The notes below the pieces were generated by a model. It searched no databases, was not told the origin of the DNA, and was given only the letters and a program-made list of their open reading frames with translations. Positions 13,472-29,900 of a DNA stretch of 64,000 nucleotides are shown one piece after another; the stretch's first letter is position 1; the number at the start of each line of letters is the position of its first letter. Both the position numbers and the translations under genes were made by a program. Source of the DNA: Streptomyces spiramyceticus (GTDB lineage: Bacteria; Actinomycetota; Actinomycetes; Streptomycetales; Streptomycetaceae); assembly GCF_028807635.1 (NCBI RefSeq), contig NZ_JARBAX010000001.1:4017501-4081500 (forward strand), in the 5' to 3' direction.

Positions 13472-13490
13472 GCAACGCTTGCGCAAGCAA
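13472..13490. promoter_or_regulatory. Palindromic operator GCTTGCGCAAGC before the SMR/FrnE operon
   Basis: GCTTGCGCAAGC (13477-13488) is a perfect 12-bp dyad 22 bp before the first SMR start. The same core, GCTTGCGTAAGC, occurs at 24413-24424 in front of a MarR gene. It is a candidate site for that MarR protein or for the divergent ArsR protein. Confidence 0.6.
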
Positions 13491-13510
13491 TGAATATGGA
13501 GGAGCTCGAC

Positions 13511-13891
13511 ATGGCCTGGATCTACTTGCTCATCGCCTCGGTCTTCGAGGTGATCTTCGCCCTCGGCACCAACGCCACCGAAGGCTTCACCAAGCTCGGA
13601 CCGTCCCTGCTCACCGCCGTAGCCGCCGGCTTCGGCATCTTCTTCCTCAGCCTCGCGCTGAAGACGCTGGACGTCGGCGTCGGCTACGCGATCTGGACCG
13701 GCATCGGCTCCGTCGGCACCGTCCTCCTCGGCACCGTGATCTTCGACGAGTCGCTGAATCTCGGCAAGGTCGTCTGCTTCGTCGCCATCCTCGGCGGAAT
13801 CATCGGCCTCAAGCTGGTCGACCGCAGCTCCGCCGATGCCGAAGCGACAATCCCCGCAGCGACGGCGACGGTCCCCGAGCCGGTCCGCTGA
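13511..13891 (+). CDS. SMR-family small exporter, SugE/Gdx-like (copy 1)
   Basis: A 126-residue, four-helix small multidrug-resistance protein. The membrane-embedded glutamate lies in IASVFEVIFALG (near residue 13), and the third helix region has VGVGYAIWTGIGSVGTVLLG, which resembles the guanidinium-exporter (SugE/Gdx) branch more than EmrE. A hydrophilic C-terminal tail of about 20 residues is extra. The ATG at 13511 follows GGAGGAG. It is the first gene of an operon with a FrnE-like protein and a second SMR gene. Confidence 0.9.
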   Translation: MAWIYLLIASVFEVIFALGTNATEGFTKLGPSLLTAVAAGFGIFFLSLALKTLDVGVGYAIWTGIGSVGTVLLGTVIFDESLNLGKVVCFVAILGGIIGLKLVDRSSADAEATIPAATATVPEPVR

Positions 13892-13925
13892 CGCGGCCCG
13901 CCACGACGACCGACGGGTGACCGAC

Positions 13926-14621
13926 ATGCCTCTGAAGATCGAGATCTGGTCCGACTACGTCTGCCCGTTCTGCCTTCTCGCCAAGAAGGTCCTGGATCAG
14001 GCGACCGAGGGCAAGGACGTGGAGATCACCTGGCATCCGTACGAGCTGCGGCCGGAACCGACGCCGACCCTGCTGGTCGAGGGCGACTACCTCCAGACCA
14101 TCTGGAAGAGCGTGGTCTATCCGATGGCGGCCCGCATGGAATCGCCGATCGTCCTGCCGGACGTGTCACCGCAGCCGTACAGCCGGCTTGCCTTCGAGGG
14201 CTACCAGTTCGCGCTGGAGCACGGCAAGGGAACCGAGTACAACGAACGACTCCTGACGGCCTTCTTCCTGGAGGAGCGCGACATCGGCGATGTCGAGGTC
14301 CTCACCGAACTGGCCGCCGGACTGGGCCTGGACGCAGAGCAGTACCGCACCGCCCTGCAGACCGGCCGCTACTACGAGACACACCAGCGGATCCAGCGCC
14401 ACGCACACGAGGACCTCGGGATCAAGACCGTCCCCACCATCTTCGTCGGGGAGGGCCGCACCAAGGTCGAGGGCATGCCCCAACGTGCGTTCCTCACCAA
14501 GGTCGTCGACGAGGTACTCGCGGCAGAACAGCTCGCAGCAGAACAGCTCGCAGCAGAACAGCCTGCGACAGAACAGCCTGCGGCAGAACGCCCCGCAGCA
14601 GTACCGCTCCCCGTGGCCTGA
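13926..14621 (+). CDS. FrnE/DsbA-family oxidoreductase (copy 1)
   Basis: 231 residues with a DsbA-like thioredoxin fold: IEIWSDYVCPFC gives the CPFC redox motif near residue 13, and the cis-Pro loop is KTVPTIFVGEG. No signal peptide, so it acts in the cytosol, as FrnE-type proteins do. The tail carries about six copies of a five-residue AAEQL/AAEQP repeat (15-bp DNA units, about 14516-14605). It is about half identical by eye to the second copy at 21795. It lies between the two SMR genes. Confidence 0.88.
   Translation: MPLKIEIWSDYVCPFCLLAKKVLDQATEGKDVEITWHPYELRPEPTPTLLVEGDYLQTIWKSVVYPMAARMESPIVLPDVSPQPYSRLAFEGYQFALEHGKGTEYNERLLTAFFLEERDIGDVEVLTELAAGLGLDAEQYRTALQTGRYYETHQRIQRHAHEDLGIKTVPTIFVGEGRTKVEGMPQRAFLTKVVDEVLAAEQLAAEQLAAEQPATEQPAAERPAAVPLPVA
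14516..14605 (+). repeat. 15-bp tandem repeat inside the FrnE-like gene
   Basis: Degenerate units of the form gcagcagaacagctc repeat about six times and encode AAEQL/AAEQP at the C-terminus. Such in-frame repeats can expand or contract without breaking the protein. Confidence 0.8.
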
Positions 14622-14675
14622 AGGCCCGCCGCGCCGCACCCCCCAAGAACCCACATCACCAAGGAGAACCACGTC

Positions 14676-14996
14676 ATGGCCTGGATCTGGCTGCTCATCG
14701 CCTCCGTCTTCGAGGTCGCCTTCGCCCTCGGCACCAACGCCACCAAGGGCTTCACCCGCCTGTGGCCCTCGGTCTTCACTTTGCTGGCCGCCGCCGGCGG
14801 CATCTTCACCCTGAGTCTCTCGCTCAGGACGCTGGACGTCGGCGTCGGCTACGCGATCTGGACCGGCATCGGCTCGGTCGGCACCGTCCTCCTCGGCTCG
14901 GTGATCTTCAAGGAGAAGATCACCAAGGAGAAGGTCCTGTGCTTCGTGTCGATCGTCGGCGGCATCATCGGCCTCAAGCTGGCGTCGGGCATCTGA
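14676..14996 (+). CDS. SMR-family small exporter, SugE/Gdx-like (copy 2)
   Basis: 106 residues, four helices, normal SMR length. It is very similar to copy 1 (both contain TLDVGVGYAIWTGIGSVGTV) with the conserved glutamate in IASVFEVAFALG. A strong ribosome site (aaggag) precedes the ATG. Two SMR genes in one operon often make a heterodimeric exporter with opposed topologies. Whether that applies here, or the copies are redundant, cannot be read from the sequence. Confidence 0.9.
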   Translation: MAWIWLLIASVFEVAFALGTNATKGFTRLWPSVFTLLAAAGGIFTLSLSLRTLDVGVGYAIWTGIGSVGTVLLGSVIFKEKITKEKVLCFVSIVGGIIGLKLASGI

Positions 14997-15227: not shown

Positions 15228-16751
15228 ATGCCTTCCCAGGGATTCCTGGACCACCTCACCGACCAGGCGGCACTGCGACCGCACGGGACCGCCCTCGTCT
15301 TCCGCGAGGAGCGTGTCAGCTACCGGGACCTGCTGGGTACGGCCCAGGACCTGCGTACGCAGCTGGCGGACCTCGGCCTCCGGGCCGGGCGGCCGCTCGC
15401 CGTCTCCGCCAAGAAGTCACCCGGCGCGATCGCCCTGGTCATCGCCCTTCTGATGGAGCAGCGGCAGATCCTGCTGCCCTCGCCGGAGCTGGGCGAGGAC
15501 GTCTTGCAGACCCTCGGGCGGCAGGCCTCCTGCTCCCACATCCTGACGGTTTCGTACGACGCCGACGGCGGCGGCCGTGCCACGGTCGAAGCACGGGAGG
15601 TGACAGGGCCCCCGGGCGCCGAAGGTTTCGTACTGCCGCCGGCCGCCCAGGCATCGCTGTTCCTCACCACCTCGGGCTCGACCGGCACCCCGAAGATCGT
15701 CCCGCTGCTCGGTACGGCCGTGGACAACTTCCTCGACTGGGGCGCCGGACAGTTCGCCGTGGCGGCGGGCAGCGCGGTCCTCAGTTACGCCCCCCTGAAC
15801 TTCGACCTGTCGCTGCTGGACATCTGGTCCACGCTCGCGGCCGGCGGCAAGGTCGTCCTCGTCGACCAGGACCGGGCCACCGATCCGGCGTATCTGCTCG
15901 GCCTCTTCGAGCAGGAGGGGCCCGAACTCGTCCAGGCCGTACCGATGTTCTTCCGCCTGCTGGCGGAGGCGGCCGAGGCTGCGCAGGTTGGCGGTCTGGT
16001 CTTCAAGCAGGCGCGGCATGTCGTCTTCACCGGCGACGCGATGCCGTACGCCCTGCTGACCCGGCTCGCGGCGCTCTTCCCCGCCGCCCGCTTCCACAAC
16101 CTCTTCGGCTGCACGGAGACCAACGACAGTCTGATCCACACGGTCGACGTCGCACGGCTCTCCCCCGACGAGGAGATCCCGATCGGCCGCCCGCTCCCCG
16201 GTGTCGACGCCCTGCTGCTCGACGAGGACGGACGGATCATCCCCGGCGAGGGCACCGGCGAACTGCTGGTCGCCACGCCGTTCCAGACTTCCGGGTACCT
16301 CGAAACCGCCCGCAATGAGGGCGTCTTCGTGCCGCACCCGGACGGCGCCCACCTCGGCGCCTATTACCGCACCGGCGACATGGTCGCCCGCCGCCAGGAC
16401 GGTACGTACGTCCTGGAGGGCCGTAACGACTTCCACGTGAAGGTCCGCGGCGTGCGGACCAACATGCAGGAGGTCGAGCAGGTCATCCTCCAGCACCCGG
16501 ACGTCCGGGAGGCGGCCGTGGTCGCCCTCCCCGACGAGCTGGCCGGCGTGAAACTGCACGCCCTGGTGCAGCGCCGGGAGGGTTCCAAGCTCGGTGGCCT
16601 GTCGCTGCGCACCCACTGTGCCGCGGCGCTCCCGCGCCCGGCCATCCCCGGATCGATCGTCGTCGGCGACGTACCGCTGCCGCGCACGCCGACCGGGAAG
16701 CCCGACCGCAATCTCATCAAGAAGAACCAGATCGAGAGGAACGCAGCATGA
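15228..16751 (+). CDS. Stand-alone adenylation (amino acid-activating) enzyme
   Basis: A 507-residue ANL-superfamily enzyme that would form an acyl-adenylate and load it on the adjacent carrier protein. It has the A3 loop TSGSTGTPKIVPL, A4 NFDLSLLDIW (the Asp that binds the alpha-amino group in NRPS A domains is present), A5 NLFGCTET, A7 YRTGDM, A8 GRNDFHVKVRG and A10 TPTGKPDR with the catalytic lysine. This supports an alpha-amino acid substrate. The substrate itself cannot be decided by eye. Start ATG 15228 follows gaggaga. The 231 bp upstream hold no gene. Confidence 0.85.
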   Translation: MPSQGFLDHLTDQAALRPHGTALVFREERVSYRDLLGTAQDLRTQLADLGLRAGRPLAVSAKKSPGAIALVIALLMEQRQILLPSPELGEDVLQTLGRQASCSHILTVSYDADGGGRATVEAREVTGPPGAEGFVLPPAAQASLFLTTSGSTGTPKIVPLLGTAVDNFLDWGAGQFAVAAGSAVLSYAPLNFDLSLLDIWSTLAAGGKVVLVDQDRATDPAYLLGLFEQEGPELVQAVPMFFRLLAEAAEAAQVGGLVFKQARHVVFTGDAMPYALLTRLAALFPAARFHNLFGCTETNDSLIHTVDVARLSPDEEIPIGRPLPGVDALLLDEDGRIIPGEGTGELLVATPFQTSGYLETARNEGVFVPHPDGAHLGAYYRTGDMVARRQDGTYVLEGRNDFHVKVRGVRTNMQEVEQVILQHPDVREAAVVALPDELAGVKLHALVQRREGSKLGGLSLRTHCAAALPRPAIPGSIVVGDVPLPRTPTGKPDRNLIKKNQIERNAA

Positions 16752-17026
16752 GCAGCAGAAGCACCAGCACCACGACTGACCGGATAACCGAGTTCGTCAC
16801 CAGCCAGTTCCTGCCGGACGTCGACGCCTCCGAACTGGCCGCGGACTACGACCTGGTGGACAACGGCGTGATCGACAGCCTGGGCCTGATACGGGTCATC
16901 TCCTGGGTCTCGGAGACCTTCGAGCTTCCCCTGGACGACATCCCGATCGCCGCCGAGAACTTCCGCTCCGTCGAGGCCATCGACCGCTTCGTCACCGAGG
17001 CGAAGGCCCCCGCCGCGGCTCTCTGA
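16748..17026 (+). CDS. Acyl/peptidyl carrier protein
   Basis: A 92-residue carrier protein. The 4'-phosphopantetheine serine lies in DNGVIDSLGLIRVISW near residue 44, and the segments around it fit a four-helix ACP/PCP fold. It overlaps the adenylation gene by four bases (ATGA), so the two are made together and form the loading pair. A phosphopantetheinyl transferase at 20586 could activate it. Confidence 0.88.
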   Translation: MSSRSTSTTTDRITEFVTSQFLPDVDASELAADYDLVDNGVIDSLGLIRVISWVSETFELPLDDIPIAAENFRSVEAIDRFVTEAKAPAAAL

Positions 17027-17091
17027 GCCGTCCCGCACCCCGCTTTTTCCGAATCACCCATCGACAGAGATCCGTTGAGGAGAGAACAGAA

Positions 17092-17466
17092 ATGATCATT
17101 CGCGGTCTGACAGACGTCAAGCACGTGGAGTGGGGCAACGGCCTGAGCCGGCGCTTCCTGACCGAGGCCGACGGTATGGGGTACTCCCTCACGGACACCG
17201 TCGTCTTCAAGGGCACCGTCTCCAAGCTCCAGTACCAGCAGCACCTGGAGGCCTGTTACTGCATCTCCGGCAGCGGTGCGGTGGAGACGGTCTCGGGCGA
17301 GCGCATCGAGATATCGGAGGGAATGATGTACGCCCTCGACGAGCACGACGCGCATCTGCTGATCGCCTCGGAGAACGAGGACTTCCGCCTCGTGTGCGCC
17401 TTCGCCCCCGCCCTGCGCGGCGACGAGGTCCACTCGCTCAGCGCGGACGGCTACTCACGCTACTGA
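17092..17466 (+). CDS. Ectoine synthase-like cupin (orphan EctC homologue)
   Basis: A 124-residue EctC-family cupin. It keeps the EctC landmarks: YQQHLEACYCISGSG, then MYALDEHDAHLL and FRLVCAFAPALRG. These contain the Glu, Tyr and His expected to bind the catalytic iron. EctC closes the tetrahydropyrimidine ring of ectoine, and the family can also cyclise glutamine to a five-membered cyclic amidine. No ectA, ectB or ectD lies nearby, so here it probably works inside the adenylation/carrier-protein pathway. Preceded by gaggaga. Confidence 0.85.
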   Translation: MIIRGLTDVKHVEWGNGLSRRFLTEADGMGYSLTDTVVFKGTVSKLQYQQHLEACYCISGSGAVETVSGERIEISEGMMYALDEHDAHLLIASENEDFRLVCAFAPALRGDEVHSLSADGYSRY

Positions 17467-17603
17467 GCCGGTTCTTGTCCACACCGTTTCACCCCCTTCA
17501 CCGCTTCACCCCTTCCCCCGAACTGCGTCGGCCCGCTCGACGGCGGGCGGGCCGGCGCTCCCCCTTTTGAACCTCTTCGACCCCTCATCTCCTAAGGACC
17601 GAA

Positions 17604-18743
17604 ATGATCACGTGGACGGCTGAGCAGCAGGAGTTCCGGGACCTGATGGCCCCCTTGGCGGACGAGCTGAACGAGGGGCACATCGAGTGGGACGAGAAGG
17701 AGGAGTTCCCGTACGACAAGTGGAAGACGGTCCAGCGCTCCGGCCTGCTGGCCGTGCCCTTCCGCGAGGAGTGGGGCGGCCGCGGCCAGTCGCTGCCGAC
17801 CACGATGTACGCACTGGAGGGGCTCGGCTACCACTCGCGTGACGCCGGGCTCAACTTTTCCGCCTCCACCCAGATCGTCTCCACCGGCATCCCGCTCCAG
17901 CGCTTCGGCTCCAAGGCGCTCAAGGATCGCTATCTGCCGCGGATCCTGGACGGCAGCCTGATCGGCGCACATGCGATCACCGAGCCGGACCACGGTTCGG
18001 ATGCGACGAACATCCGGTCGGTCGCGGTCAAGGACGGCGACGACTACGTCATCAACGGCTCCAAGATGTTCATTTCCAACGCCACGATCGCCGACGTCTT
18101 TCTGCTGTACGTACGTACCGGCGAGCCCGGCAGTCCGCTGGGGATCAGCGTCTTCCTCGTGGAGCGCGACACCCCCGGCCTGAGCGTCGGGCCGAACATC
18201 AAGAAGATGGGCCTGCACAGCTCGCCGCTCGCCGAGGTGTTCTTCGACAACCTGCGGGTGCCTGCCTCGAACATGCTCGGCTCCGAAGGTGCCGGATTCC
18301 TCATCCTGGACTACGTGATGAAGCGGGAGATCCTCTTCTCCTTCTCCATCAACCTCGGCGAGATGCAGCACCGGCTGGAGCGCGTCGTCGCGTATGCCAG
18401 GAGCCGCGAGCAGTTCGGTCAGCCCATCGGCAAGTTCCAGGGCGTCTCGCACAAGATCGCCGACATGAAGATCGCGGTCGAGACCGCCCGCAAGTGGCTC
18501 TACGACACGGCCGAAAAGGTCGTCGCCAACAAGGACAGCACGATCGATGTCGCCGCCACCAAGATCACGGTGAGCGAGGCGAACAAGGCCACGGCCCTCA
18601 CCGCCCTCCAGATATTCGGCGGCTACGGCTACCTCACCGAGCACGGCATCGAGAAGGACGTGCGCAACGCGCTCGCCGGAACCATCTACTCCGGTACGTC
18701 CGAGATCCAGCGCAACCGCATCGCGTCAATGCTCGGCCTCTGA
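17604..18743 (+). CDS. Acyl-CoA dehydrogenase-like flavoenzyme, possibly acting on a carrier-bound acyl group
   Basis: 379 residues with a complete acyl-CoA dehydrogenase fold: AITEPDHGSD (FAD-binding), FGGYGYLTEHGIEKDVRNAL, and the C-terminal GTSEIQRNRI. The usual MCAD-type base position (the E in IYEGTS) is serine here (IYSGTS). Instead Glu242 in MKREILFS aligns with the base position of isovaleryl-CoA dehydrogenase, which is also used by prolyl-carrier-protein oxidases such as PltE and RedW. With the adenylation/carrier pair, oxidation of a tethered amino acid is plausible. A 137-bp gap precedes it. Confidence 0.85.
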   Translation: MITWTAEQQEFRDLMAPLADELNEGHIEWDEKEEFPYDKWKTVQRSGLLAVPFREEWGGRGQSLPTTMYALEGLGYHSRDAGLNFSASTQIVSTGIPLQRFGSKALKDRYLPRILDGSLIGAHAITEPDHGSDATNIRSVAVKDGDDYVINGSKMFISNATIADVFLLYVRTGEPGSPLGISVFLVERDTPGLSVGPNIKKMGLHSSPLAEVFFDNLRVPASNMLGSEGAGFLILDYVMKREILFSFSINLGEMQHRLERVVAYARSREQFGQPIGKFQGVSHKIADMKIAVETARKWLYDTAEKVVANKDSTIDVAATKITVSEANKATALTALQIFGGYGYLTEHGIEKDVRNALAGTIYSGTSEIQRNRIASMLGL

Positions 18744-18817
18744 CCCTCGGCGCCCTTGCACGACGCACCACCGCATTGCTTCCCGCACCCGTACGAGAGT
18801 CCCCGGAGGGACGTGCC

Positions 18818-19513
18818 ATGACCATCGTCACCGAGCAGAGCCCCGACACCTTCGAGTACCTGCTGCGGCCCACCTACTTCCTCGACCACGACACCCCGGA
18901 GATCCAGGAGTTCGTGGACCGCTGGGTCACCGACCGCGACGCCCCGGCCGCCCAGAAGGCCGTAGAGCTGTACTACGCGGTCCGCGACAACGTCTTCTAC
19001 GAGGTGTACGACGCCGACCTGTCCCGCGAGGGACTGCGGGCCAGCTCCATAGCCATTGGCGGGCAGGGCTTCTGTCTGCACAAGTCGATCCTGTACGCGG
19101 CCGCCGTCCGCGCGGTGGGCATACCCAGCCGCCTCGTCTACGGCGACGTACGCAACCACCTGGCCTCCGACCGCCTCAAGCAGCACATCGGCGGAGACGT
19201 CTTCTTCCACGGCCTGACCTCGGTCTTCCTCGACGGCCGCTGGATGAAGGCCACCCCGGTCTTCAACAAACTCCTGTGCCGGCTGTACGGGATGACCCCG
19301 CTGGAGTTCGACGGCACCGGCGACAGCCTCTACCACCCGTTCGACGGGGACGAGGGCGACTCCTCGCAGGCCATGCAGTTCCTGCGCATGCACGGCGAGT
19401 TCGACGACCTGCCCTACGACTACGTCATGACGAACATGCGGTCCAAGCACCCGAAGTTCGTGCACGGCGACGGCACGGTGGCGGGCGGCTCGCTGGCCGC
19501 CGAGGCGTCCTGA
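18818..19513 (+). CDS. Transglutaminase-like cysteine protein
   Basis: 231 residues with a transglutaminase-like core: GGQGFCLHKSILYAAAVRAV supplies the nucleophilic Cys, and VFFHGLTSVFLDGRWMK supplies the His. At the usual third-residue position (V-D-P) the sequence is KATPVFN, so the aspartate is not obvious. Members of this fold do proteolysis, transpeptidation or amide formation on carrier-bound substrates. The role here is unknown. ATG 18818 follows ggaggg. It sits 25 bp before the next gene. Confidence 0.78.
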   Translation: MTIVTEQSPDTFEYLLRPTYFLDHDTPEIQEFVDRWVTDRDAPAAQKAVELYYAVRDNVFYEVYDADLSREGLRASSIAIGGQGFCLHKSILYAAAVRAVGIPSRLVYGDVRNHLASDRLKQHIGGDVFFHGLTSVFLDGRWMKATPVFNKLLCRLYGMTPLEFDGTGDSLYHPFDGDEGDSSQAMQFLRMHGEFDDLPYDYVMTNMRSKHPKFVHGDGTVAGGSLAAEAS

Positions 19514-19538
19514 GCCCCTACTTCCTCCTGGAGAACCG

Positions 19539-20348
19539 ATGAGCAACGTCACCACCCCCACTGACGGCTGGCGGGCCCGTGCCCGGGTCGGCGTCGTCGT
19601 CCCGCACGCGGACGTCGGCCCCGAGTCCGAGCTCCAGGCGATGGCCCCCGAGGACGTCTTCATCCACGGCTCGCGCCTGCACTTCGGGGCGATGCGCCCC
19701 GGCGGCGAGATGGACCCGAAGATCCCGCATTCGCCCGTGTACGCGTTCATCGAGCCGCCGCACGTGGACATCGCCACCGAACTGCTGGCCGCCTCGCCCA
19801 TCGACTCGATCGCCATGGGCTTCACCAGCTCGTCGTACGTCGTCGGGGTGGCCGGTGAGAAGGCGCTGTACGAGCGGCTGGCCGAGCGCACCCGCGGCAT
19901 CCCGATCACCGGCACCACCACGGCGGCCGTCGCCGCGATGCGCGCACTGGGCGCGGAGCGCCTGGCGCTGGTCAACCCGCCGTGGTTCGACGACGAGCTG
20001 TCCGGGCTGGGCGCCACGTACTTCACCGACCAGGGGCTGCACGTCGTGCACCACGGGCCGTGCGGACTGCCGAGCAACCAGAAGGAGATCACCCCCGAGG
20101 CGCTCTCCGCCTGGATACGCACCGAGGTGGCGTCGTACAAGCCGGACGCCGTACTCGTCGCGGGCAACGGGATCCGCGCGGTCGGTGTCATCAAGGGCCT
20201 GGAGGAGGAGCTCGGCTTCTCCGTCCTGACGGCCAACCAGGTGCTCTTCTGGCACGCGCTCCATCTGGCCGGCGCCGCGGACGTGGCCAGAGAAATCACC
20301 TCGTACGGGCGACTCTTCGGGAGCACTGATGGCCCTCTTGCCGGCTGA
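19539..20348 (+). CDS. Asp/Glu racemase-superfamily protein lacking the usual cysteines
   Basis: 269 residues resembling maleate cis-trans isomerase/arylmalonate decarboxylase. Conserved shapes are RVGVVVPHADVGPESELQAM, SIAMGFTSSSYVVG and VLVAGNGIRAVGVIKGLE. In active racemases and isomerases a Cys lies in each of the last two motifs. Here the positions are FTSSS and AGNGIR, so both are absent. The Thr-Ser pair that forms the oxyanion pocket in arylmalonate decarboxylase may be kept. The substrate is unknown and chemistry different from racemisation is likely. Confidence 0.75.
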   Translation: MSNVTTPTDGWRARARVGVVVPHADVGPESELQAMAPEDVFIHGSRLHFGAMRPGGEMDPKIPHSPVYAFIEPPHVDIATELLAASPIDSIAMGFTSSSYVVGVAGEKALYERLAERTRGIPITGTTTAAVAAMRALGAERLALVNPPWFDDELSGLGATYFTDQGLHVVHHGPCGLPSNQKEITPEALSAWIRTEVASYKPDAVLVAGNGIRAVGVIKGLEEELGFSVLTANQVLFWHALHLAGAADVAREITSYGRLFGSTDGPLAG

Positions 20349-20547
20349 CGGTTTCGTCGCGCAGTTCATGACCCAGGACGGCGACCGTTACACCGAGCCG
20401 CTGATCTGCTGGCGGGAGGACGACACGTGCGTCTACGGCATGGTGCTGCACAAAGGATCCCTGCGCAGGGCCGAGGCCCTGAACGGCTTCCTGAACTACC
20501 GCACGGCGGAAGAACAGGCGGAGCGCCGCCTCCACGCCGTGGGCTGA
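20329..20547 (+). CDS. Small hypothetical protein of the biosynthetic cluster
   Basis: 72 residues, not recognised. It overlaps the previous gene by 20 bases, which argues for coupled translation and against a chance ORF. The sequence (DGFVAQFMTQDGDRYTEPLI, then CWREDDTCVYGMVL) looks like a small beta-rich domain followed by an amphipathic helix (EEQAERRLHAV). Two cysteines are seven residues apart. No signal peptide or membrane segment. Confidence 0.65.
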   Translation: MALLPADGFVAQFMTQDGDRYTEPLICWREDDTCVYGMVLHKGSLRRAEALNGFLNYRTAEEQAERRLHAVG

Positions 20548-20585
20548 CAGCAGCCCGTACGGGGCGGTCGCTCTTTCCGCGAGGG

Positions 20586-21236
20586 GTGGTCTTCACCGAG
20601 GCGGCGGCGGACATGTGGGAGCAGCCCCTCCCTGCCGCCGAGGAGCAGCACTTGGCGGGCGCTGTACCGCGGCGGATAGGGGAGTTCCGGGCGGGCAGGC
20701 ACAGTGCCCGGGCCGGGCTCGCCAGGATCGGGCTGCGGCCGGAGCTGCTTCTCCCCGCCCCTGGCGGCGGAGTCCGCTGGCCGGCAGGGGCCGTCGGATC
20801 CATCTCGCACAGTGGCCGATATTGCGCCGCAGCGGTCGCCCCGGCCGCGCTGGTGGCCGGGATCGGCTTCGACGCCGCCCAGCGGACCACCGTGACGGGG
20901 GTGATGGCCCGGGCGGTCTGCCGGCCGGAGGAACTGGACTGGTGCGAGCGCGATCCTTACCCGGCCGAGGAGCGGGCGACCCTCGTCTTCTCGGCCAAGG
21001 AAGCGCTCTACAAGGCACTCCACCCACTGACCGGAGTGCCGCTCGGTTTCCAGGACGTGACCGTCACCGTCCCGGCCGCCCGGCTGACCTCGGGCCGCTT
21101 CTTCGCCCTGGTCCTCGCCCCGGGCCCGTTGAACGGCCTCAGGGTGCGGGGCCGCTACGCCTTCACTGCCACGGAGGTCCTCACCTCCGTGGTCCTCACC
21201 CACCACCCCACGACCGGCAAGGAGCCGACCCGATGA
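20586..21236 (+). CDS. 4'-Phosphopantetheinyl transferase (EntD/Sfp-like)
   Basis: 216 residues from a GTG start. It would transfer phosphopantetheine from CoA to the carrier protein at 16748. Family landmarks are RRIGEFRAGRHSARAGLARI, GSISHSGRYCAAAV and FSAKEALYKALHPLTG (Mg-binding Glu and Lys). The middle metal motif is IGFDAAQ rather than the usual G-I-D-x-E, so the second acidic residue is Ala. No better start codon exists in frame after the preceding gene's end. The stop overlaps the deaminase start (ATGA). Confidence 0.85.
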   Translation: MVFTEAAADMWEQPLPAAEEQHLAGAVPRRIGEFRAGRHSARAGLARIGLRPELLLPAPGGGVRWPAGAVGSISHSGRYCAAAVAPAALVAGIGFDAAQRTTVTGVMARAVCRPEELDWCERDPYPAEERATLVFSAKEALYKALHPLTGVPLGFQDVTVTVPAARLTSGRFFALVLAPGPLNGLRVRGRYAFTATEVLTSVVLTHHPTTGKEPTR

Positions 21237-21742
21237 CCACTCCCTCCTCCGCCTCCACAGCGGCCGCCGACGCCGACCCGCAGCTCGTCGAGTACGTGAA
21301 CCAGGCCGTCCGACTCTCCTCCGAGCACGTGGCCCGTGGCGGCATCCCCTTCACCGGCCTCGTCGTCGGACGCAAGGGCGACCTGCTCGGCACCGGCGTC
21401 AACACCGTGAGCGAGGACCGCGACGCGACCGCCCACGCGGAGATCGTGGCCCTGCGCGCGGCGGCGAAGCAGCACGGTCTGCGGGCCGTGGCCGGGTCCA
21501 CCCTGATCGCCTCGGGGGAGCCGTGCGCGCTGTGCTACATGGCGGCGCTCCACTTCGGCGTACAGCACATCGTGTACGCGGCGGACCGGCACATGGCCGC
21601 GCGGGCCGGCTTCGACTACGCCGACTCCTACCGCATCTTCGCCACCGACCCCACCCAGTGGCCCCTGAAGGTCACCGCGCTTCCCGTGGAGGGTTCGGAG
21701 CGGCCCTTCGACGAGTGGCGCGGCGTACGTCTGCACCACTGA
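21233..21742 (+). CDS. Cytidine/guanine deaminase-like zinc enzyme
   Basis: 169 residues of the cytidine-deaminase-like superfamily, closest in look to guanine deaminase/tRNA-adenosine deaminase relatives. The zinc site is complete: TAHAEIVAL supplies the His and the proton-shuttle Glu, and EPCALCYMA supplies two Cys. A four-base overlap with the phosphopantetheinyl transferase gene ties it to the pathway. It could remove an amino or imino group from an intermediate, or act on a free nucleobase. The sequence does not decide this. Confidence 0.82.
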   Translation: MTTPSSASTAAADADPQLVEYVNQAVRLSSEHVARGGIPFTGLVVGRKGDLLGTGVNTVSEDRDATAHAEIVALRAAAKQHGLRAVAGSTLIASGEPCALCYMAALHFGVQHIVYAADRHMAARAGFDYADSYRIFATDPTQWPLKVTALPVEGSERPFDEWRGVRLHH

Positions 21743-21794: not shown

Positions 21795-22487
21795 ATGACG
21801 GTGAACATCAAGGTCTGGTCCGACTACGTCTGCCCGTTCTGCCTGCTGGCCGAGGAACCGCTGCTCAAGGCGGTGGAGGGCGAGGACGTCGAGATCGAGT
21901 GGATGCCGTTCGAACTCCGCCCGCACCCGGTGCCGACGCTGCACCCCGAGGGGGAGTACCTCCAGACCGTCTGGAAGCGGGCGGTCTACCCGATGGCGCA
22001 CCGCATGAAGGTGGACATCAAGCTGCCGGACGTTTCTCCGCAGCCGTACACCGGGACCGCTTTCGAGGGCTACCAGTTCGCGAAGGAGCACGGGAAGGGC
22101 ACGGAGTACACGCCGCGGATGCTGCGGGCATTCTTCCAGGAGGGCCGGAACATCGGCGAGATCGATGTACTGACCGACATCGCCACCGAACTGGGCCTCC
22201 CGGCCGCCGAATTCCGGCAGGCGCTGGAGGGCGGCACCTACCGGCAGGCGCACCAGGACGCGCTGAAGATGGCGGAGAAGAATCTGATCCAGAGCGTGCC
22301 CACGATCATCGTGGGCGGCACCCACCGCATCGAGGGAGTCCCGCACCCCGCGCAACTCCGTAAGGCGATCGAGGCCGCGAAGGCAGAGACCGCGCAGGCG
22401 GAGAAAGCCGCGGCCGAGAGCGCGGCCGCCGAGGCCGGAGGGGCACCCGCCGACTGGGGTGCCACCTGCGGAATCGACGGATGCTGA
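21795..22487 (+). CDS. FrnE/DsbA-family oxidoreductase (copy 2)
   Basis: 230 residues, cytosolic. CPFC redox motif in VWSDYVCPFCLLAE (near residue 13) and cis-Pro loop SVPTIIVGGT. It is clearly paralogous to the protein at 13926: both have LPDVSPQPY and AFEGYQFA-EHGKGTEY. It ends with a cysteine-bearing tail (ATCGIDGC) absent from copy 1. The last seven bases overlap the MarR gene, so redox protein and regulator are co-expressed. Confidence 0.88.
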   Translation: MTVNIKVWSDYVCPFCLLAEEPLLKAVEGEDVEIEWMPFELRPHPVPTLHPEGEYLQTVWKRAVYPMAHRMKVDIKLPDVSPQPYTGTAFEGYQFAKEHGKGTEYTPRMLRAFFQEGRNIGEIDVLTDIATELGLPAAEFRQALEGGTYRQAHQDALKMAEKNLIQSVPTIIVGGTHRIEGVPHPAQLRKAIEAAKAETAQAEKAAAESAAAEAGGAPADWGATCGIDGC

Positions 22488-22861
22488 GCGAGGCCGCCCA
22501 CTGGCGTGACCTGATCGTGCTGACCGGCCGGGTCGGTCACGCCGTCGACAAGGCGATGCTGCGCCACCACGGCATCTGCCTCTCCGGCTTCTTCGCGCTG
22601 TCGGCGCTGAAGGAGACGGAGGGACAGCTGCTGCGCGTGCAGGAGTTGTCCGATGCGGTGGGGCTGACGCAGTCGACGGTGAGCCGGCTGCTGAACCGGC
22701 TGGAGGATTCGGGTCTGGTGCGGCGGCGCATCGGAAACCACGACCGGCGCGCTACCTATGCCCTCATTACGGAGGCGGGTCTTGCGGCGGTGGACGAAGC
22801 CACCGGCACCTTCGAGAAGGAAGTAGGAGCGGCTCTCGCGGCCGTTCGATTGAAGTTCTGA
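22481..22861 (+). CDS. MarR-family regulator (copy 1)
   Basis: 126 residues with a MarR winged helix: VQELSDAVGLTQSTVSRLLN (recognition helix), RLEDSGLVRRRIGNHDRRAT (wing) and a C-terminal dimerisation helix. Cys residues are sparse (one in HHHGICLSG-like context), so thiol sensing is possible but not shown. It overlaps the FrnE-like gene and is paralogous to the MarR gene at 24479. Its likely targets include the island operons. Confidence 0.88.
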   Translation: MLSEAAHWRDLIVLTGRVGHAVDKAMLRHHGICLSGFFALSALKETEGQLLRVQELSDAVGLTQSTVSRLLNRLEDSGLVRRRIGNHDRRATYALITEAGLAAVDEATGTFEKEVGAALAAVRLKF

Positions 22862-24427: not shown

Positions 24428-24478
24428 ACACTTGCCTGAGCGGGCGCCGATCGGCGCCCAGGGCAGGAGGTGGCCGCG

Positions 24479-24922
24479 ATGGCCGAGGCGGCGAACGGCA
24501 CGGCAACCCTTGCCGGCCTGGACCTTTACCGGCAGCTGACCATCCTCGTCGGTCAGGCGAGCGGCACGCTCGAAAAGCGAATGCTGAGAAGGCACGGCGT
24601 CACCCCGCTCGAATACATGGCGCTGTCCAAGCTCGCGGACGCGGGCGACGACAGCCTGCGCATGAACGACCTCGCTGAAGCCGTGGGGGTCAACCCCTCC
24701 ACGGTGAGCCGGCTCATGGGCCGCCTGGAGGCCGGTGAGCTGGCCCGCAGGGAAATCTGCGAGGCGGACCGCAGGGCGACGTACGCGCGGATCACCGAAC
24801 AGGGGCAGCGGGTGGTGCGGGAGGCCGCGGCCACCTTCGACGACGACTTCGAGACGGTGCTGGACACTGCCGCGGTCGATTCCCGTACGGCGGCTCTGGT
24901 GGCGGTGCTGCGCCGGGAGTAG
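24479..24922 (+). CDS. MarR-family regulator (copy 2)
   Basis: 147 residues with MarR landmarks LRMNDLAEAVGVNPSTVSRL, MGRLEAGELARREICEADRR (wing) and terminal dimerisation helices. The ATG at 24479 is chosen because it has proper spacing to GGCAGGAGG; a GTG at 24470 abuts that site. Its promoter holds a perfect palindrome, and the same palindrome precedes the SMR/FrnE operon 11 kb away, suggesting a small regulon. It stands alone in transcription. Confidence 0.9.
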   Translation: MAEAANGTATLAGLDLYRQLTILVGQASGTLEKRMLRRHGVTPLEYMALSKLADAGDDSLRMNDLAEAVGVNPSTVSRLMGRLEAGELARREICEADRRATYARITEQGQRVVREAAATFDDDFETVLDTAAVDSRTAALVAVLRRE

Positions 24923-25015
24923 CGGACGGCGGATGCGTCCGCAGAGGCCGGCCCACGACGGACTGTCGGGGTCGGCTTTTTTCTGTGCGTTTTTCTTCGG
25001 ATCGCGGTGGAAAAA

Positions 25016-25038
25016 AAACCGGTGGGCAGGTATGTTTT
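25016..25038 (+). promoter_or_regulatory. ARE-like element 2 (before the divergent AfsA gene)
   Basis: 23 bp beginning AAACCGGTGGGCAGGTATGT, ending in a T-run. It is 35 bp upstream of the ATG at 25073 and aligns base for base with the other AREs in the island. It is in a position to block transcription of the three-gene operon 25073-28259. Confidence 0.75.
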
Positions 25039-25072
25039 ACGAGTCGAACCGTCACCGAGAGGATTCGCGAAC

Positions 25073-25972
25073 ATGGCTGTACTGCTTGAGCCGCCGGTCG
25101 TCACCGCGCAGCACGACGCGCCGGCCGGGGAACTCATCACCCATTGCCAGGCCGAGGACGACCGCACGTACGAACTCTCCGCCCGATGGCCGCGCGAGCA
25201 CGGCCTCTTCGGGCCCGTGCTGGAGCGCTGGCACAATCCGCTGCTGGCCGCCGAGATCATCCGGCAGTCCGCCCTCGCGGTCGCGCACACCGGCTTCGCC
25301 GTCCCGCAGGGCCACCGCTTCCTGATGTGGAACCTGAAATACACGCTCTCCCCGGTCGGCCTGCGCGTCGGCCCCGCGCCCACCGGACTCACCGTCAGGA
25401 TCGTGTGCCGCGACGTCAAGCGGTCCGGCGCCGAACTGTCCAGCATGCGCGCGACGGCCGACCTCTACCGCGGCACCGCCCTCATCGGCCGCGGCGAGAC
25501 CACCTTCACCTGTGTCTCGCCCCAGGAGTACGAGCGGCTGTGCGGCGTCAATGAGCCCGCCACCGCCCCGGCCCCCGAACTGCCCGCCCCGGTCTCCCCG
25601 CCGCTCGTCGGCCGGACCGACCCGGCCGACGTACTCCTCGCCCCCACCGGGACCGCCGGCGCCTGGCAGCTGCGGGTCGACCGCGCGCACCCCGTGCTCT
25701 GCGACCCGGCCGCCGACTCCGTCCCGGGCATGGCCCTCATGGAGGCCATGCGCCAGGCCGCCCAGATCGCCGCCGGATGCGGCACGGTCCTCTCGCTCGA
25801 CTTCGCCAGCGAATTCACCCGGTACGTACGCTTCGACCGCCCAGCGCTGGTCACCGCCGAGGTCATCGGCTCCTCGCACGGCGGTGGCGTCCCGGTCCAT
25901 GTGGCCGTCGAACAGGACGGCGAACTCGCCGCGTTCGGCACGCTGCAGCTTCAGCCGGTGCGTTCGGCGTGA
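25073..25972 (+). CDS. Divergent AfsA-family (A-factor synthase-like) protein
   Basis: 299 residues with two AfsA hotdog repeats. Repeat 1 shows YELSARWPREHGLFGPVLER, then NPLLAAEIIRQSALAVAHTG. Repeat 2 has HPVLCDPAADSVPGMALMEA, where canonical members, including the other copy here, have D-H-P-x-D-H-x-P-G-M. The usual VHR-x-x-x-x-x-V-F N-terminus is also missing. AfsA proteins join a beta-keto acyl-ACP to dihydroxyacetone phosphate at the first step of butyrolactone signals. This copy may have another substrate or be inactive. First gene of an ARE-controlled operon. Confidence 0.8.
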   Translation: MAVLLEPPVVTAQHDAPAGELITHCQAEDDRTYELSARWPREHGLFGPVLERWHNPLLAAEIIRQSALAVAHTGFAVPQGHRFLMWNLKYTLSPVGLRVGPAPTGLTVRIVCRDVKRSGAELSSMRATADLYRGTALIGRGETTFTCVSPQEYERLCGVNEPATAPAPELPAPVSPPLVGRTDPADVLLAPTGTAGAWQLRVDRAHPVLCDPAADSVPGMALMEAMRQAAQIAAGCGTVLSLDFASEFTRYVRFDRPALVTAEVIGSSHGGGVPVHVAVEQDGELAAFGTLQLQPVRSA

Positions 25973-25983
25973 GCGGAGTACCA

Positions 25984-27132
25984 GTGACGACCACCACCGA
26001 GGCCGCCCGAACCGCGGAGGCGGCCAACGGCCCCCGCATCCTGGTGACCGGGGCGACCGGCTTCATCGGCTCCGCCGTACTGCGCGATCTCGCCGCGCGG
26101 CACGGCGGGACCGGCGGGCAGGTACGGGCCCTGGTCAGAAACGTCCCGAGACCGCGGATCAGCCGCCCCGTCATCGACCCCGGCATCGAGTACGTACAGG
26201 GCGACGTAACGGACCCCGCCTCCCTGCGCGGGGTCTGCGACGGCATCGACGTACTGATCCATCTCGCCTGCTACATAGGCCCCGACGAACGGCTCTGCAC
26301 CGCCGTCAACGACCACGGCACCCAGGCCCTTCTCGCCGAGGCGGCCCGGGCCGGCACCCGCCGCATCCTGACCGTCTCCACCACCGCGGTCTACGGCGGC
26401 GGCCCGCACCGGAGCATCGGCGAACACGACGTCGAGCCCGCACCGGTGTCGCCCACCAGCCGCAGCAGGCTGCTCGCCGAGCAGGCCGTGCTCGCCGCGG
26501 GAGGCGTGGTCCTGCGGCCGGGACTCGTCTACGGCACCGGCGACGAATGGGTCGTACCGGCCGTCGCTGAACTCCTCGGCCGGGTGCCCGCCTGGTGCGA
26601 CGGCGGCCGTGCGCTGCTGTCCGTGATCGCCGTCGACGACCTGGCCCGGCTGCTCACCACGGCGGCCATGTCGTACGACCCGGTGCTGCCGCCCGGCACG
26701 GTGCACCACGCGAACCACCCCGAGCCGGTCTCCCTCCGGGACCTGCTGATCGAGCTCTGCCTGGGCGTCGGGCTGCCGCTGCCGCAGGAGGACCTGACGT
26801 ACGAGGAGTACCGCGGGCGTCTGGCAGCCGTGCCCGGCTGGGTGACCGAGCGTCAGCTCTCCCTGCTGGCCACCGATCACTGGTACCGCAGCTGTTCCGT
26901 GTGGCAGCTCGCCGGGTGCCTGCCGGGGCCCGGGTTCCAGGCCCGTATGCGCTCGTACGCCCCCTGGTACCGGGCGTTTCTCGACCAGGCCCCGGCCATG
27001 CATCCTGTCCAGCCCACGCACCCTGTCCCGCCCACGCACCCTGTCCCGCCCACGCTCCCTGTCCAGCCCACGCCCTCTGCCCCGCGCAGCGCCGCATCAT
27101 CCGTTCCGACCTGGATCGAGACCTCCGCATGA
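25984..27132 (+). CDS. NAD-dependent epimerase/dehydratase-like extended SDR
   Basis: 382 residues. Rossmann motif ILVTGATGFIGSAVLRDLA at the N-terminus and the conserved VSTTAVYGGG strand. The catalytic Y-x-x-x-K that normally follows is not present: the aligned stretch is TSRSRLLAEQ (Tyr to Thr, Lys to Arg), so chemistry may be altered. The C-terminus carries about four Pro-rich repeats (HPVPPT). GTG start 12 bp after the AfsA-like gene, and a 4-bp overlap with the OYE gene. A reductase or epimerase step on a signal precursor is plausible. Confidence 0.82.
   Translation: MTTTTEAARTAEAANGPRILVTGATGFIGSAVLRDLAARHGGTGGQVRALVRNVPRPRISRPVIDPGIEYVQGDVTDPASLRGVCDGIDVLIHLACYIGPDERLCTAVNDHGTQALLAEAARAGTRRILTVSTTAVYGGGPHRSIGEHDVEPAPVSPTSRSRLLAEQAVLAAGGVVLRPGLVYGTGDEWVVPAVAELLGRVPAWCDGGRALLSVIAVDDLARLLTTAAMSYDPVLPPGTVHHANHPEPVSLRDLLIELCLGVGLPLPQEDLTYEEYRGRLAAVPGWVTERQLSLLATDHWYRSCSVWQLAGCLPGPGFQARMRSYAPWYRAFLDQAPAMHPVQPTHPVPPTHPVPPTLPVQPTPSAPRSAASSVPTWIETSA
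27004..27078 (+). repeat. 18-bp tandem repeat at the 3' end of the SDR gene
   Basis: About four copies of a unit like cctgtcccgcccacgcac encode HPVPPT/LPVQPT. The repeat length is a multiple of three, so copy-number changes keep the frame. Confidence 0.8.
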
Positions 27133-28259
27133 CCACCTCCCCCCAACGGCTCCACCCCGCCCTCGCGCCGGTCGACTTCGCCGGACTGCGCCTGGACAAC
27201 CGCCTCGCGGTCGCGCCGATGACCCGCGTCTCGGCCACCGCACAGGGACTGGCGACCGCCGAGATGGCGGCGTACTACACCGACTTCGCCCACGGCGGCT
27301 TCGGCCTGGTCATCACCGAAGGCACGTACACGGACAGCGCGTACAGCCAGGGCTACGCCAACCAGCCCGGCATCGTGTCGACCACGCACACCGCCGCCTG
27401 GCAGCGCGTCACCGACCGGGTCCACGCGGCCGGTTCCCGGATCGTGCTCCAGCTCATGCATGCCGGTGCGCTGGCCCAGGGCAACCGGTTCCGGCCGGGC
27501 ACCGCCGCGCCGTCCGCCGTGCGGCCGCGCGGCGAGCAGCTGGCCAACTACGGCGGCGGGGGGCCGTGGCCGGTGCCCGTGCCCATGACCCAGGAGGAGA
27601 TCACCGAGGCCGTCCGCGGCTTCGCGGACTCCGCCGCGCGGGCACGGGAGGCGGGCTTCGACGGGGTCGAGGTGCACGCGGCCAACGGCTATCTGCTCGA
27701 CCAGTTCCTCACCGACTGCACCAACCTCCGCACCGACTGCTACGGCGGCCCGATCGGGCAACGCGTCAGGCTGATGCGCGAGACCGTCGCCGCCGTGCGG
27801 TCCGCGACGGGCCACGGCTTCACGGTCGGCGTCCGTTTCTCCCAGGCGAAGGTCAACGACCACGCCCACCGCTGGGCGGGCGGCACCTGCGAGGCCGAGA
27901 CGATCTTCACGGCGGCCTCGGCGGCGGGAGCGGACTATCTGCACATCGCCGGCAGCGGCCGGGACTGGTTCACCGCCGAGCGCCTTGACGACGGCCGGAC
28001 CGTCGCCGCCGTCGCCCGTGAGTCCACCGGGCTGCCGGTGATGGCCAACGGCGGCATGCACGACCCCGACCAGGCAGCGCGGGTCCTGGAGGAGGGGCAC
28101 GCCGATCTGCTCTCGGTCGGTACGGGCGCTCTCGCCAACCCCGATCTGCCGCGCCGTCTTGAGGGCCGCGCGGCGCCCGCCCGGTTCGATCCGGCGGTGC
28201 TCAAGCCGCTTGCCACGCTCGCCAACGCCCGTCGGGTGCGGGCGGGGCAGCCTCTGTGA
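27129..28259 (+). CDS. Old yellow enzyme-family NADH:flavin oxidoreductase
   Basis: 376 residues, FMN-dependent ene-reductase fold. Typical elements: LAVAPMTRVSATAQG, IVLQLMHAGALAQGNRF, the HAANGYLLDQFLTD strand followed by N-x-R-T-D-x-YGG, and the phosphate-binding MANGGM near the C-terminus. It overlaps the SDR gene (ATGA), so AfsA-like, SDR and OYE are one operon. Reduction of a butenolide double bond is a known step in butyrolactone-type signals, and an ene-reductase fits that step. The assignment is inference. Confidence 0.88.
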   Translation: MTTSPQRLHPALAPVDFAGLRLDNRLAVAPMTRVSATAQGLATAEMAAYYTDFAHGGFGLVITEGTYTDSAYSQGYANQPGIVSTTHTAAWQRVTDRVHAAGSRIVLQLMHAGALAQGNRFRPGTAAPSAVRPRGEQLANYGGGGPWPVPVPMTQEEITEAVRGFADSAARAREAGFDGVEVHAANGYLLDQFLTDCTNLRTDCYGGPIGQRVRLMRETVAAVRSATGHGFTVGVRFSQAKVNDHAHRWAGGTCEAETIFTAASAAGADYLHIAGSGRDWFTAERLDDGRTVAAVARESTGLPVMANGGMHDPDQAARVLEEGHADLLSVGTGALANPDLPRRLEGRAAPARFDPAVLKPLATLANARRVRAGQPL

Positions 28260-28372: not shown

Positions 28373-29095
28373 ATGGCGGAGCAGGAAAGGGCCAGGCGGA
28401 CCCGGAACCGGCTGGTCGTCGCGGCGGCCGAGGTGTTCGACGCCATCGGGTACGAGCGGGCGACGATGGCCCGCATCAGTGCCGCGGCCGGGGTGACCAA
28501 GGGAGCCCTCTACTTCCACTTCTCCACCAAGGACGAGCTGGCCAGGGCTGTTCAGGCGCGGGCGTGCGAGGGATCCGCCGAAGTGCTCGCCGGGCTCGAC
28601 CGGCCCGGCGCACCGGCGCTTCAGGTGCTCATCGATGTGACCCATGCGCTGGCCCGCCTGGTGCGGGACGACATGGTGGTACGGGCCGGCGTGCTGCTCT
28701 CGCGCGAGCGCGGGAGCGCCGATGCGGCCCTGGACTGTTACGCGGTCTGGCTCCGCTGCGTACAGGCACTGCTGCTGCGCGCCGAGGCCGAGCGCGCGCT
28801 GCGGCCCGGCGTCTGCCGCGACGCGGTCACCGCTCTGGTGGTCTCCATGATCTGCGGGACCGAGTTCTTCGCCCGCAGGGACGTGCTGGACACCGGACTG
28901 GACCCGGCCCTGTCCACAGATACGGACACGGACACCCGCGCGGACGCCAATACGGACACGGCCCGCGACCGGTCGGACGGGGCGTTCGAATGGCTTGCGC
29001 GCATCTGGGGCCTCGTCCTTCCCGCGCTGGTGGAGACCGGCGTCGGCGCGGCACTGGACGCGTCGGGCAGGGCGTCCGGCCCGTCCGCCGGCTGA
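28373..29095 (+). CDS. TetR-family gamma-butyrolactone receptor-like regulator (copy 1)
   Basis: 240 residues. N-terminal TetR HTH with the ArpA/ScbR-type signature: VVAAAEVFDAIGYERATMAR, then ISAAAGVTKGALYFHFSTKD. The ligand domain has VRAGVLLSRERG, similar to receptor proteins. Residues about 181-203 are an acidic Thr/Asp insert (STDTDTDTRADANTDT) unusual for the family. An ARE-like site in its own promoter suggests autoregulation or control by the second receptor. It may be a pseudo-receptor rather than the true signal sensor. Convergent with the next gene. Confidence 0.85.
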   Translation: MAEQERARRTRNRLVVAAAEVFDAIGYERATMARISAAAGVTKGALYFHFSTKDELARAVQARACEGSAEVLAGLDRPGAPALQVLIDVTHALARLVRDDMVVRAGVLLSRERGSADAALDCYAVWLRCVQALLLRAEAERALRPGVCRDAVTALVVSMICGTEFFARRDVLDTGLDPALSTDTDTDTRADANTDTARDRSDGAFEWLARIWGLVLPALVETGVGAALDASGRASGPSAG

Positions 29096-29161
29096 CCCCC
29101 GATCGGCCTCCGGTTCTTCCTCTCCCTGTTCCTGCAAGCGTTTCTGCTGCCGTTTCCGTCC

Positions 29162-29779: not shown

Positions 29780-29806
29780 GGATACCTCTCGAACAGGGGT
29801 AGAAAA

Positions 29807-29829: not shown

Positions 29830-29900
29830 CAGTGTGCACCTCGCCGGCAGAGACTGCGGCGCCAGGTGATTTTTGCCTGTTCCAAGGGGAGGGAACTCGC

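Follow-up and report, generated by a model that had tools for sequence, protein, structure and literature searches.

Gene content of the locus

The window (the whole stretch of DNA analysed here, 64,000 nucleotides of Streptomyces spiramyceticus contig NZ_JARBAX010000001.1, positions 4,017,501 to 4,081,500) contains a compact gene run built around a stand-alone adenylation enzyme (A), a carrier protein (T) and an ectoine-synthase-like (EctC-like) cupin. This run is probably the core of a showdomycin-type gene cluster without the gene pair for ribosylation, and would provide a route to a small, reactive, sugar-free ring compound.

A first-pass annotation had described nine tightly spaced genes reaching from A to a zinc deaminase. 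All nine were found in place, with overlaps of 4–20 bp (A/T 4 bp, EutA-like/DUF6253 20 bp, phosphopantetheinyl transferase/deaminase 4 bp). Their families are supported by Pfam; the cut-offs for AMP-binding, Ectoine_synth, Acyl-CoA_dh, Transglut_core, Amdase, DUF6253, 4PPT_N/ACPS and dCMP_cyt_deam were passed and the carrier protein fell just below its own. The unit is nevertheless longer than had been proposed, since two small multidrug resistance (SMR) exporters and a DsbA-family gene precede it (13490-14996) and a second DsbA-family gene and a MarR regulator follow it (21795-22861). The genes of the extended unit are:

13490..13891, + strand: SMR exporter 1 (Pfam Multi_Drug_Res, 2.8e-24; 52% identity to the S. 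showdoensis locus)
13926..14621, + strand: DsbA-family thiol oxidoreductase 1 (Pfam DSBA; CPFC motif)
14676..14996, + strand: SMR exporter 2 (Pfam Multi_Drug_Res; 67% identity to the S. showdoensis locus)
15228..16751, + strand: A, stand-alone adenylation enzyme, SdmC-like (Pfam AMP-binding; nine-letter pocket code DLLAVTLDS)
16748..17026, + strand: T, peptidyl carrier protein (PCP), SdmD-like, with Ser44 (PP-binding, 19.5 versus a cut-off of 20.8 bits)
17092..17466, + strand: EctC-like cupin, SdmE-like glutamine cyclase (Pfam Ectoine_synth, 4.7e-36; Glu53/Tyr80/His88)
17604..18743, + strand: carrier-bound dehydrogenase resembling acyl-CoA dehydrogenases (ACAD) (Pfam Acyl-CoA_dh; Glu242; nearest NCBIfam models PigA/RedW, below cut-off)
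18818..19513, + strand: transglutaminase-fold protein (TG), probably the release enzyme (Pfam Transglut_core; Cys86/His131)
19539..20348, + strand: EutA-like protein of the arylmalonate decarboxylase (AMDase)/maleate isomerase fold (Pfam Amdase; motifs FTSSxY and GNGxR)
20329..20547, + strand: DUF6253 protein of 72 amino acids (Pfam DUF6253, 6.1e-36; predicted small beta-barrel)
about 20586..21236, + strand: 4'-phosphopantetheinyl transferase (PPTase) (Pfam 4PPT_N/ACPS; no match at the S. showdoensis locus)
21233..21742, + strand: zinc deaminase of the cytidine/tRNA-adenosine deaminase family (Pfam dCMP_cyt_deam_1; motif HAE...PCALC)
21795..22487, + strand: DsbA-family protein 2 (Pfam DSBA; 62% identity to the S. 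showdoensis locus)
22481..22861, + strand: MarR regulator (Pfam MarR_2; 37% identity to the S. showdoensis MarR)

As stated in the first-pass annotation, no polyketide synthase (PKS) or multimodular nonribosomal peptide synthetase is situated nearby, judged by the Pfam scan of the genes between 13490 and 30899. Compared with the close relative strain ISL-98, 19 window genes are intact, and for 17 of them the ratio of nonsynonymous to synonymous substitution (dN/dS) is 0.05–0.35.

Relationship to the showdomycin cluster

A search with the EutA-like protein returned a 67% identical relative named for Streptomyces showdoensis (P0062). One locus of our collection, L115 in genome G728, encodes a EutA-like protein 100% identical to P0062 and was for this reason assigned to S. 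showdoensis. Its gene order is haloacid dehalogenase-type (HAD) phosphatase, PsuG, DsbA, deaminase, SMR, SMR, MarR, A, T, EctC, ACAD, TG, EutA-like, DUF6253. The showdomycin cluster is described in the part of a review cited here as 16 genes in 12.2 kb, including the C-glycosynthase SdmA, the phosphatase SdmB, the A enzyme SdmC, the carrier SdmD and the glutamine cyclase SdmE; SdmE cyclises glutamine, SdmC activates and SdmD carries the product, and oxidation and hydrolysis follow (PMC8724604). The gene content of L115 fits this description, and L115 is presumably the published cluster.

Twelve of the 15 genes visible at L115 have a counterpart in the window, with 37–69% identity: A, T, EctC-like cupin (56% identical), ACAD, TG, EutA-like protein, DUF6253, deaminase, DsbA, the two SMR exporters and MarR. 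The window also holds the showdomycin-type set of A, PCP, EctC-like cyclase, oxidase and hydrolase, if ACAD and TG are taken as the oxidase and the hydrolase. The comparison argues strongly for a showdomycin-type cassette. With these matches and a glutamine route outlined in print (PMC8724604), the earlier statement that a pathway with this set of genes was not recognised is wrong or incomplete. Most of the set is in fact already assigned to a known product, showdomycin; the C-glycosynthase and the phosphatase are absent, and the end product is therefore unlikely to be showdomycin itself. Given the gene match and the published route, the precursor is most likely glutamine or its cyclic amidine and not proline. 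The more general idea of a small pathway of its own, in which a modified cyclic amino acid is formed on a carrier protein, was borne out: the genes are co-conserved, and the flavoenzyme chemistry would be analogous to prolyl-carrier oxidation.

A conserved cassette

Searching 200 Streptomycetaceae genomes with the cupin gave 32 matches outside this genome at an identity of at least 48%. Thirty of these 32 loci (all except L069 and L070) carry A-T-EctC-ACAD, so the gene run is more than chance, and the co-occurrence of the A and EctC-like genes suggested as a check on the first-pass annotation is indeed found. Together with other searches, the locus table comprises 57 loci selected for having A, EctC and ACAD; after removal of the near-copies L008, L039 and L078, 54 loci and the window gave 55 aligned cassettes.

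In these alignments the Glu/Tyr/His positions of EctC, Glu242 of ACAD and the carrier serine are fixed in 55 of 55 cassettes, the window included. The Cys and His of TG are fixed in all 42 cassettes that have TG, and the equivalent of Asp235 in A is present in all 53 rows reaching that position. We take these positions to be catalytic or metal-ligand residues. The 13 cassettes lacking TG are all of the kind found beside genes resembling TrpD, TrpA, TrpF and TrpC (L058, L076, L042, L047, L060 and others), in which the A code is nearly the same. The nine pocket positions of A were mapped by motif, with the motif positions as we assume them to be. The code DLLxxTxDS varies little among the A proteins complete in this part, 53 of the 55; that of the window, DLLAVTLDS, is close to DLLGVTVDS of S. 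showdoensis, and the most divergent one is DLLSLAIDT (L080). As regards the prediction of A specificity that had been proposed, the code resembles that of the glutamine-route enzyme and differs from what we take to be proline codes. A, T, EctC-like cupin, ACAD and TG are a conserved cassette.

The cupins of the window's group are 48–78% identical, whereas the remaining relatives reach at most 43% and are probably true EctC; a second EctC relative of this genome, at 977129, is 38% identical to the cassette cupin. For ACAD the NCBIfam models PigA (346 of 500 bits) and RedW (325 of 650 bits) both stay under their cut-offs.

The cassette also occurs in other surroundings. In Vibrio sp. THAF191c (L077:5098-6957) ACAD and TG form one frame of 619 codons, hinting that the two act in sequence. 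A plasmid of the alphaproteobacterium Aliiroseovarius crassostreae (L080) carries a divergent cassette of TG, EctC, ACAD, A and carrier together with ketosynthase and trpD-like genes. At L064, L065, L066, L068 and L082 the cassette is accompanied by a TrpB-like pyridoxal phosphate enzyme (recognised at L064 by an NCBIfam TrpB-like score above cut-off and elsewhere by similarity) and, L082 excepted, by a protein of 170–184 amino acids, whose L064 copy has no Pfam match; a beta-(aminopyrrolyl)alanine may be the product of this branch. In Streptomyces pathocidini (L012) and at L063 the cassette is joined by a styrene-monooxygenase-like StyA, a flavin reductase and a pair of SMR genes, which makes a further oxidative branch. 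EctC-like genes at 55–56% identity are also found outside the cassette, that of Rhizobium gallicum (L074) next to a type I PKS and that of Gloeothece (L073) near a tryptophan halogenase.

The EutA-like protein and the accessory genes

A EutA-like protein with 63–100% identity to the S. showdoensis copy is encoded in 16 of 392 Streptomyces genomes. In the pieces read and the window, the cassette adjoins the EutA-like gene in all 16 and PsuG is present in one. In a tree of the concatenated proteins, obtained by a quick search and with long branches for L077 and L080, the 24 EutA-bearing rows other than Vibrio fall into one well-supported group of 26, together with two PsuG rows. PsuG requires three changes among four rows on this tree, a number equalled by shuffled labels in 29 of 500 cases; ribosylation seems to come and go. 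The Vibrio record encodes MarR, A, T, EctC, the fused ACAD and TG, DsbA, two SMR exporters, the deaminase and a 52% identical EutA-like protein; no DUF6253 match was found on it. Among 246 Actinomycetota genomes one further EutA relative besides that of this genome was found at E<=1e-40 (42% identity), and named relatives at 71–76% come from Sphaerisporangium, Saccharothrix and Kribbella. Judged by this draw, the close form occurs only rarely beyond the family. EutA relatives at 46–52% occur in 15 of the 392 genomes; none of the 11 loci fetched has the cassette, and their neighbours were uninformative.

In the EutA-like protein the position of AMDase Cys188 is occupied by Gly (alignment to AMDase), and the GNG motif is found in 21 aligned rows. 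The stretch of the first Cys site, whose location in the AMDase/maleate isomerase family we presume, reads FTSS and has no Cys. A Foldseek search with the predicted model matched arylmalonate decarboxylase (E 6.9e-14) and maleate isomerase (5.6e-12), the best match (4.2e-15) being an unnamed relative. Without either of these cysteines, the protein is no typical member of the decarboxylases, isomerases or racemases, and a function as maleate isomerase or racemase was rejected.

Of 120 positions at which the 24 PsuG-less copies agree, nine are different in the S. showdoensis copy, which has lost His23 and Cys175, both kept by all 24 aligned copies; it lies on a long branch, and other copies left out singly differ at up to seven fixed positions. 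The two losses may reflect a changed substrate. We softened the idea that the EutA-like protein and PsuG exclude each other: the PsuG loci L010, L011 and L040 have no close EutA-like protein but a 30–31% paralogue nearby, and L115 keeps 111 of the 120 fixed residues.

The accessory genes were counted at 23 loci of the EutA clade (not counting the window, the near-copies or L018 and L118, which are truncated). Deaminase and SMR genes are present at 23 of 23, DsbA at 20 (at L051-L053 the piece ends near the deaminase), DUF6253 at 17 and PsuG at one; L144, a longer piece of L118, also has deaminase, DsbA and SMR. None of these genes, nor an old yellow enzyme (OYE)-family reductase, was found at the 24 TrpD/A/F/C or TrpB loci or at the 11 loci whose sole EutA relative is a distant one. 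At the three other PsuG loci deaminase was found once and SMR and DsbA not at all. The accessory genes are part of the system. Homologues close to the OYE (E<=1e-120) are present in six of 199 Streptomyces genomes, namely in five of the seven holding DUF6253 and in one of the 192 others (the OYE and DUF6253 draws being taken as the same 199 genomes), so that the reductase tracks the cluster; the single homologue among the 192 (L143) shows no cassette around it. The DUF6253 protein is predicted as a small barrel (mean pLDDT 85.5), for which a fold search against the PDB gave no match at E<=0.001. SMR exporter 1 has SugE as its top NCBIfam model, below cut-off (99 versus 126 bits).

Further downstream the window contains:

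22996-24327: sulfotransferase-like gene (Pfam-scanned stretch)
24470..24922, + strand: second MarR regulator (Pfam MarR_2)
25007..25972, + strand: ScbA/BarX gamma-butyrolactone synthase (NCBIfam ScbA_BarX_GamBu above cut-off)
27129..28259, + strand: OYE-family reductase (Pfam Oxidored_FMN)
28373..29095, + strand: ScbR-family gamma-butyrolactone receptor (NCBIfam ScbR_bind_reg above cut-off)

An epimerase gene lies between the synthase and the OYE gene. OYE scores 170 bits against an NCBIfam cut-off of 403, its second-best model being N-ethylmaleimide reductase. The ScbR-type receptor and a second AfsA-domain protein (28373-30899) come after the cluster, which may be under gamma-butyrolactone control; an AfsA relative is present at 12 related cassette loci, ISL-98 not counted.

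Missing ribosylation genes

No SdmA-type C-glycosynthase (PF04227) was found within the cluster; the only PF04227 gene of this genome is located at 1,092,986, at a distance of 2.9 Mb. Nor does any window gene match the HAD phosphatase of L115 at E<=1e-10. PsuG and HAD co-occur at four cassette loci (L010, L011, L040 and L115) and neither is present at the others; among the loci compared, relatives of the S. showdoensis phosphatase are confined to L010, L011 and L040, which are precisely the remaining PsuG loci. As the two genes are together or absent, ribosylating clusters seem to carry their own pair.

Proposed pathway

We propose the following sequence of steps. First, the EctC-like cupin would close the side-chain amide of L-glutamine onto the alpha-amine, giving the cyclic amidine 2-amino-1-pyrroline-5-carboxylate. 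Second, A would adenylate the amidine and load it onto T, primed by the PPTase of the cluster. Third, the ACAD-like enzyme would remove two hydrogens to give 2-aminopyrrole-5-carboxyl-T; as one double bond is in place in the amidine beforehand, one round of two-electron oxidation would be enough. Fourth, TG with its Cys-His pair would free 2-aminopyrrole-5-carboxylate. Fifth, ribose-5-phosphate, attached in the showdomycin branch, would not be added, and the EutA-like protein (presumably a decarboxylase), oxygen and the zinc deaminase would lead to 5-aminopyrrol-2-one and then to maleimide or a close relative; the deaminase could convert maleimide imine to maleimide. Sixth, the paired SMR pumps, MarR, DsbA and OYE would serve export, sensing and self-protection under gamma-butyrolactone control. 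SugE-like SMR pumps (below cut-off), DsbA, MarR and OYE are what one might expect of a producer that exports, and defends itself against, a small compound that is at first cationic and later electrophilic.

Steps one to four are supported by the homology with genes of the showdomycin locus and by the conserved residues. The genes for ribosylation in step five are absent; we infer the remainder of this step and step six. The end product is probably a maleimide-type electrophile, and the roles of the EutA-like protein, DUF6253 and the deaminase are likewise proposed ones. Tentatively, the proposal can be widened to a recurrent sugar-free showdomycin branch in Streptomycetaceae and one Vibrio, in which a Cys-less protein of the AMDase/maleate isomerase fold might decarboxylate the aminopyrrole and a zinc deaminase complete the ring, to yield a free maleimide-type electrophile from glutamine, showdomycin being an occasional ribosylated offshoot. 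If this possibility is true, the last showdomycin steps regarded as non-enzymatic would be enzymatic in the sugar-free relatives.

Several observations weigh against the proposed pathway. The last steps of showdomycin formation are held to be non-enzymatic in the part of the review cited, which names only SdmA–SdmE; the placement of ACAD at the oxidation and of TG at the hydrolysis is ours (PMC8724604). The EutA-like protein and the deaminase may act in resistance rather than synthesis. Identity to the S. showdoensis proteins is only 38% for T and 49% for A, and for T (0.65) and DUF6253 (0.61) dN/dS against ISL-98, based on few changes, is not low. OYE at an identity of at least 60% is present at only nine of the 23 EutA-clade loci and absent from L115. 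SMR genes occur at both StyAB loci and the deaminase at one of the three other PsuG loci, and are not exclusive to the EutA branch.

Alternative explanations

We considered three other explanations for the gene run. The released aminopyrrole could be a building block joined to a larger molecule by neighbours such as the sulfotransferase-like gene product (22996-24327) or by distant genes. Besides the presence of this gene in the window, it is the relatives of the cassette that speak for such a role, as they feed larger routes (TrpD/A/F/C-like, in S. xanthii with a type II PKS; TrpB-like; StyAB). On the other hand, a rough gene grouping of the EutA-clade loci, made without a systematic search, gave no further common family, and the Vibrio operon unites cassette and accessories in one compact block. 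We regard a building block as unlikely.

Even less probable in our view is that the cluster makes showdomycin or another C-nucleoside with the PF04227 gene at 1,092,986 and a housekeeping phosphatase acting in trans. PF04227 is indeed present somewhere in 22 of the 25 genomes holding this cluster type, but G306, G247 and G272 hold the cluster without it, and it was found neither on the 1.85-Mb Vibrio record nor on the Streptomyces globosus plasmid, the only replicons of these two organisms that were searched. The joint presence or absence of PsuG and HAD among the cassette loci also speaks against a function in trans. In just two of the 25 genomes, G728 (S. showdoensis) and G209 (L040), does PF04227 adjoin the cluster; several of the 25 are drafts, which give no relative position for a gene on a different contig, yet it lies outside the pieces read.

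The analogy of the first-pass annotation in its literal form, with proline (or pipecolate) loaded by A and turned into a pyrrole by ACAD, is very improbable and was dropped: the top NCBIfam models of ACAD, PigA and the prolyl-PCP dehydrogenase RedW, would fit, both below cut-off, but an EctC-like cyclase accompanies A, T and ACAD, A and the cupin are 49% and 56% identical to S. showdoensis proteins of the glutamine route, and the A code is unlike what we take to be proline codes, so that code and EctC partner point to the showdomycin enzymes.

Two further candidates were set aside. Nicotinic acid, taken from summaries of kosinostatin, was judged a less likely precursor for the window than glutamine. 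An ectoine-like osmolyte was rejected, as the cupin is part of the cassette and the other EctC relative lies elsewhere in the genome.

Comparison with known systems

The biosynthetic logic of our proposed sugar-free route is already known; what seems to be new is that the sugar-free form is the commoner one in the genomes searched, its occurrence in a Vibrio and the conserved but unassigned tailoring set. Among the matches listed, in titles and abstract openings of open-licence papers, we found no account of the PsuG-less version; a genome paper, in the part cited, reports a partial showdomycin match of 52% (PMC8303363). The role of stand-alone ectoine-synthase-like genes is called unclear in the cited part of a review (PMC5924519), and our proposal offers a concrete substrate and chemistry for them. 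It does the same for the showdomycin neighbours EutA-like protein, DUF6253, deaminase and DsbA, for which the cited part of the showdomycin review names no role (PMC8724604). It predicts a family of small reactive metabolites behind genes annotated as 'ectoine synthase' or 'maleate isomerase'.

With the showdomycin cluster the window shares twelve genes and a near-identical A pocket code. It differs in lacking the PsuG-type C-glycosynthase and the HAD phosphatase; extra in the window are the PPTase, one more DsbA and one more MarR gene, OYE and the gamma-butyrolactone genes.

AMDase, maleate isomerase, EutA and IgiC share Pfam family and fold with the EutA-like protein, whereas the window protein has Gly at Cys188 and FTSS at the first site. 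In the text cited, the IgiC protein from the indigoidine operon bears the annotation arylmalonate decarboxylase (PMC5014874), and the gene name igiC on one EutA relative is perhaps an annotation transfer.

Ectoine synthase EctC has the fold family and the three metal-ligand positions in common with the window cupin, but the latter belongs to the 48–78% group and the others stay at or below 43%. A partnership with ectA and ectB was not found, the neighbours being cassette genes. True EctC also cyclises glutamine to such an amidine, although poorly, according to the part of the review cited (PMC5924519).

The pyrrolopyrrole sub-cluster of kosinostatin/quinocycline (kstB/kstC) is likened to the window through loci of the L076 type only. 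At L076 in S. xanthii the cassette, whose A code agrees with that of the window in all nine letters, lies beside type II PKS genes; in contrast to the window it adds TrpD/A/F/C-like genes and has no EutA-like gene, deaminase or SMR pair. The precursor of the kosinostatin pyrrolopyrrole is given as nicotinic acid and not glutamine in the text cited (PMC7918784). By analogy, this unit may instead derive from a glutamine-derived aminopyrrole, and the assignment of nicotinic acid becomes directly testable against glutamine.

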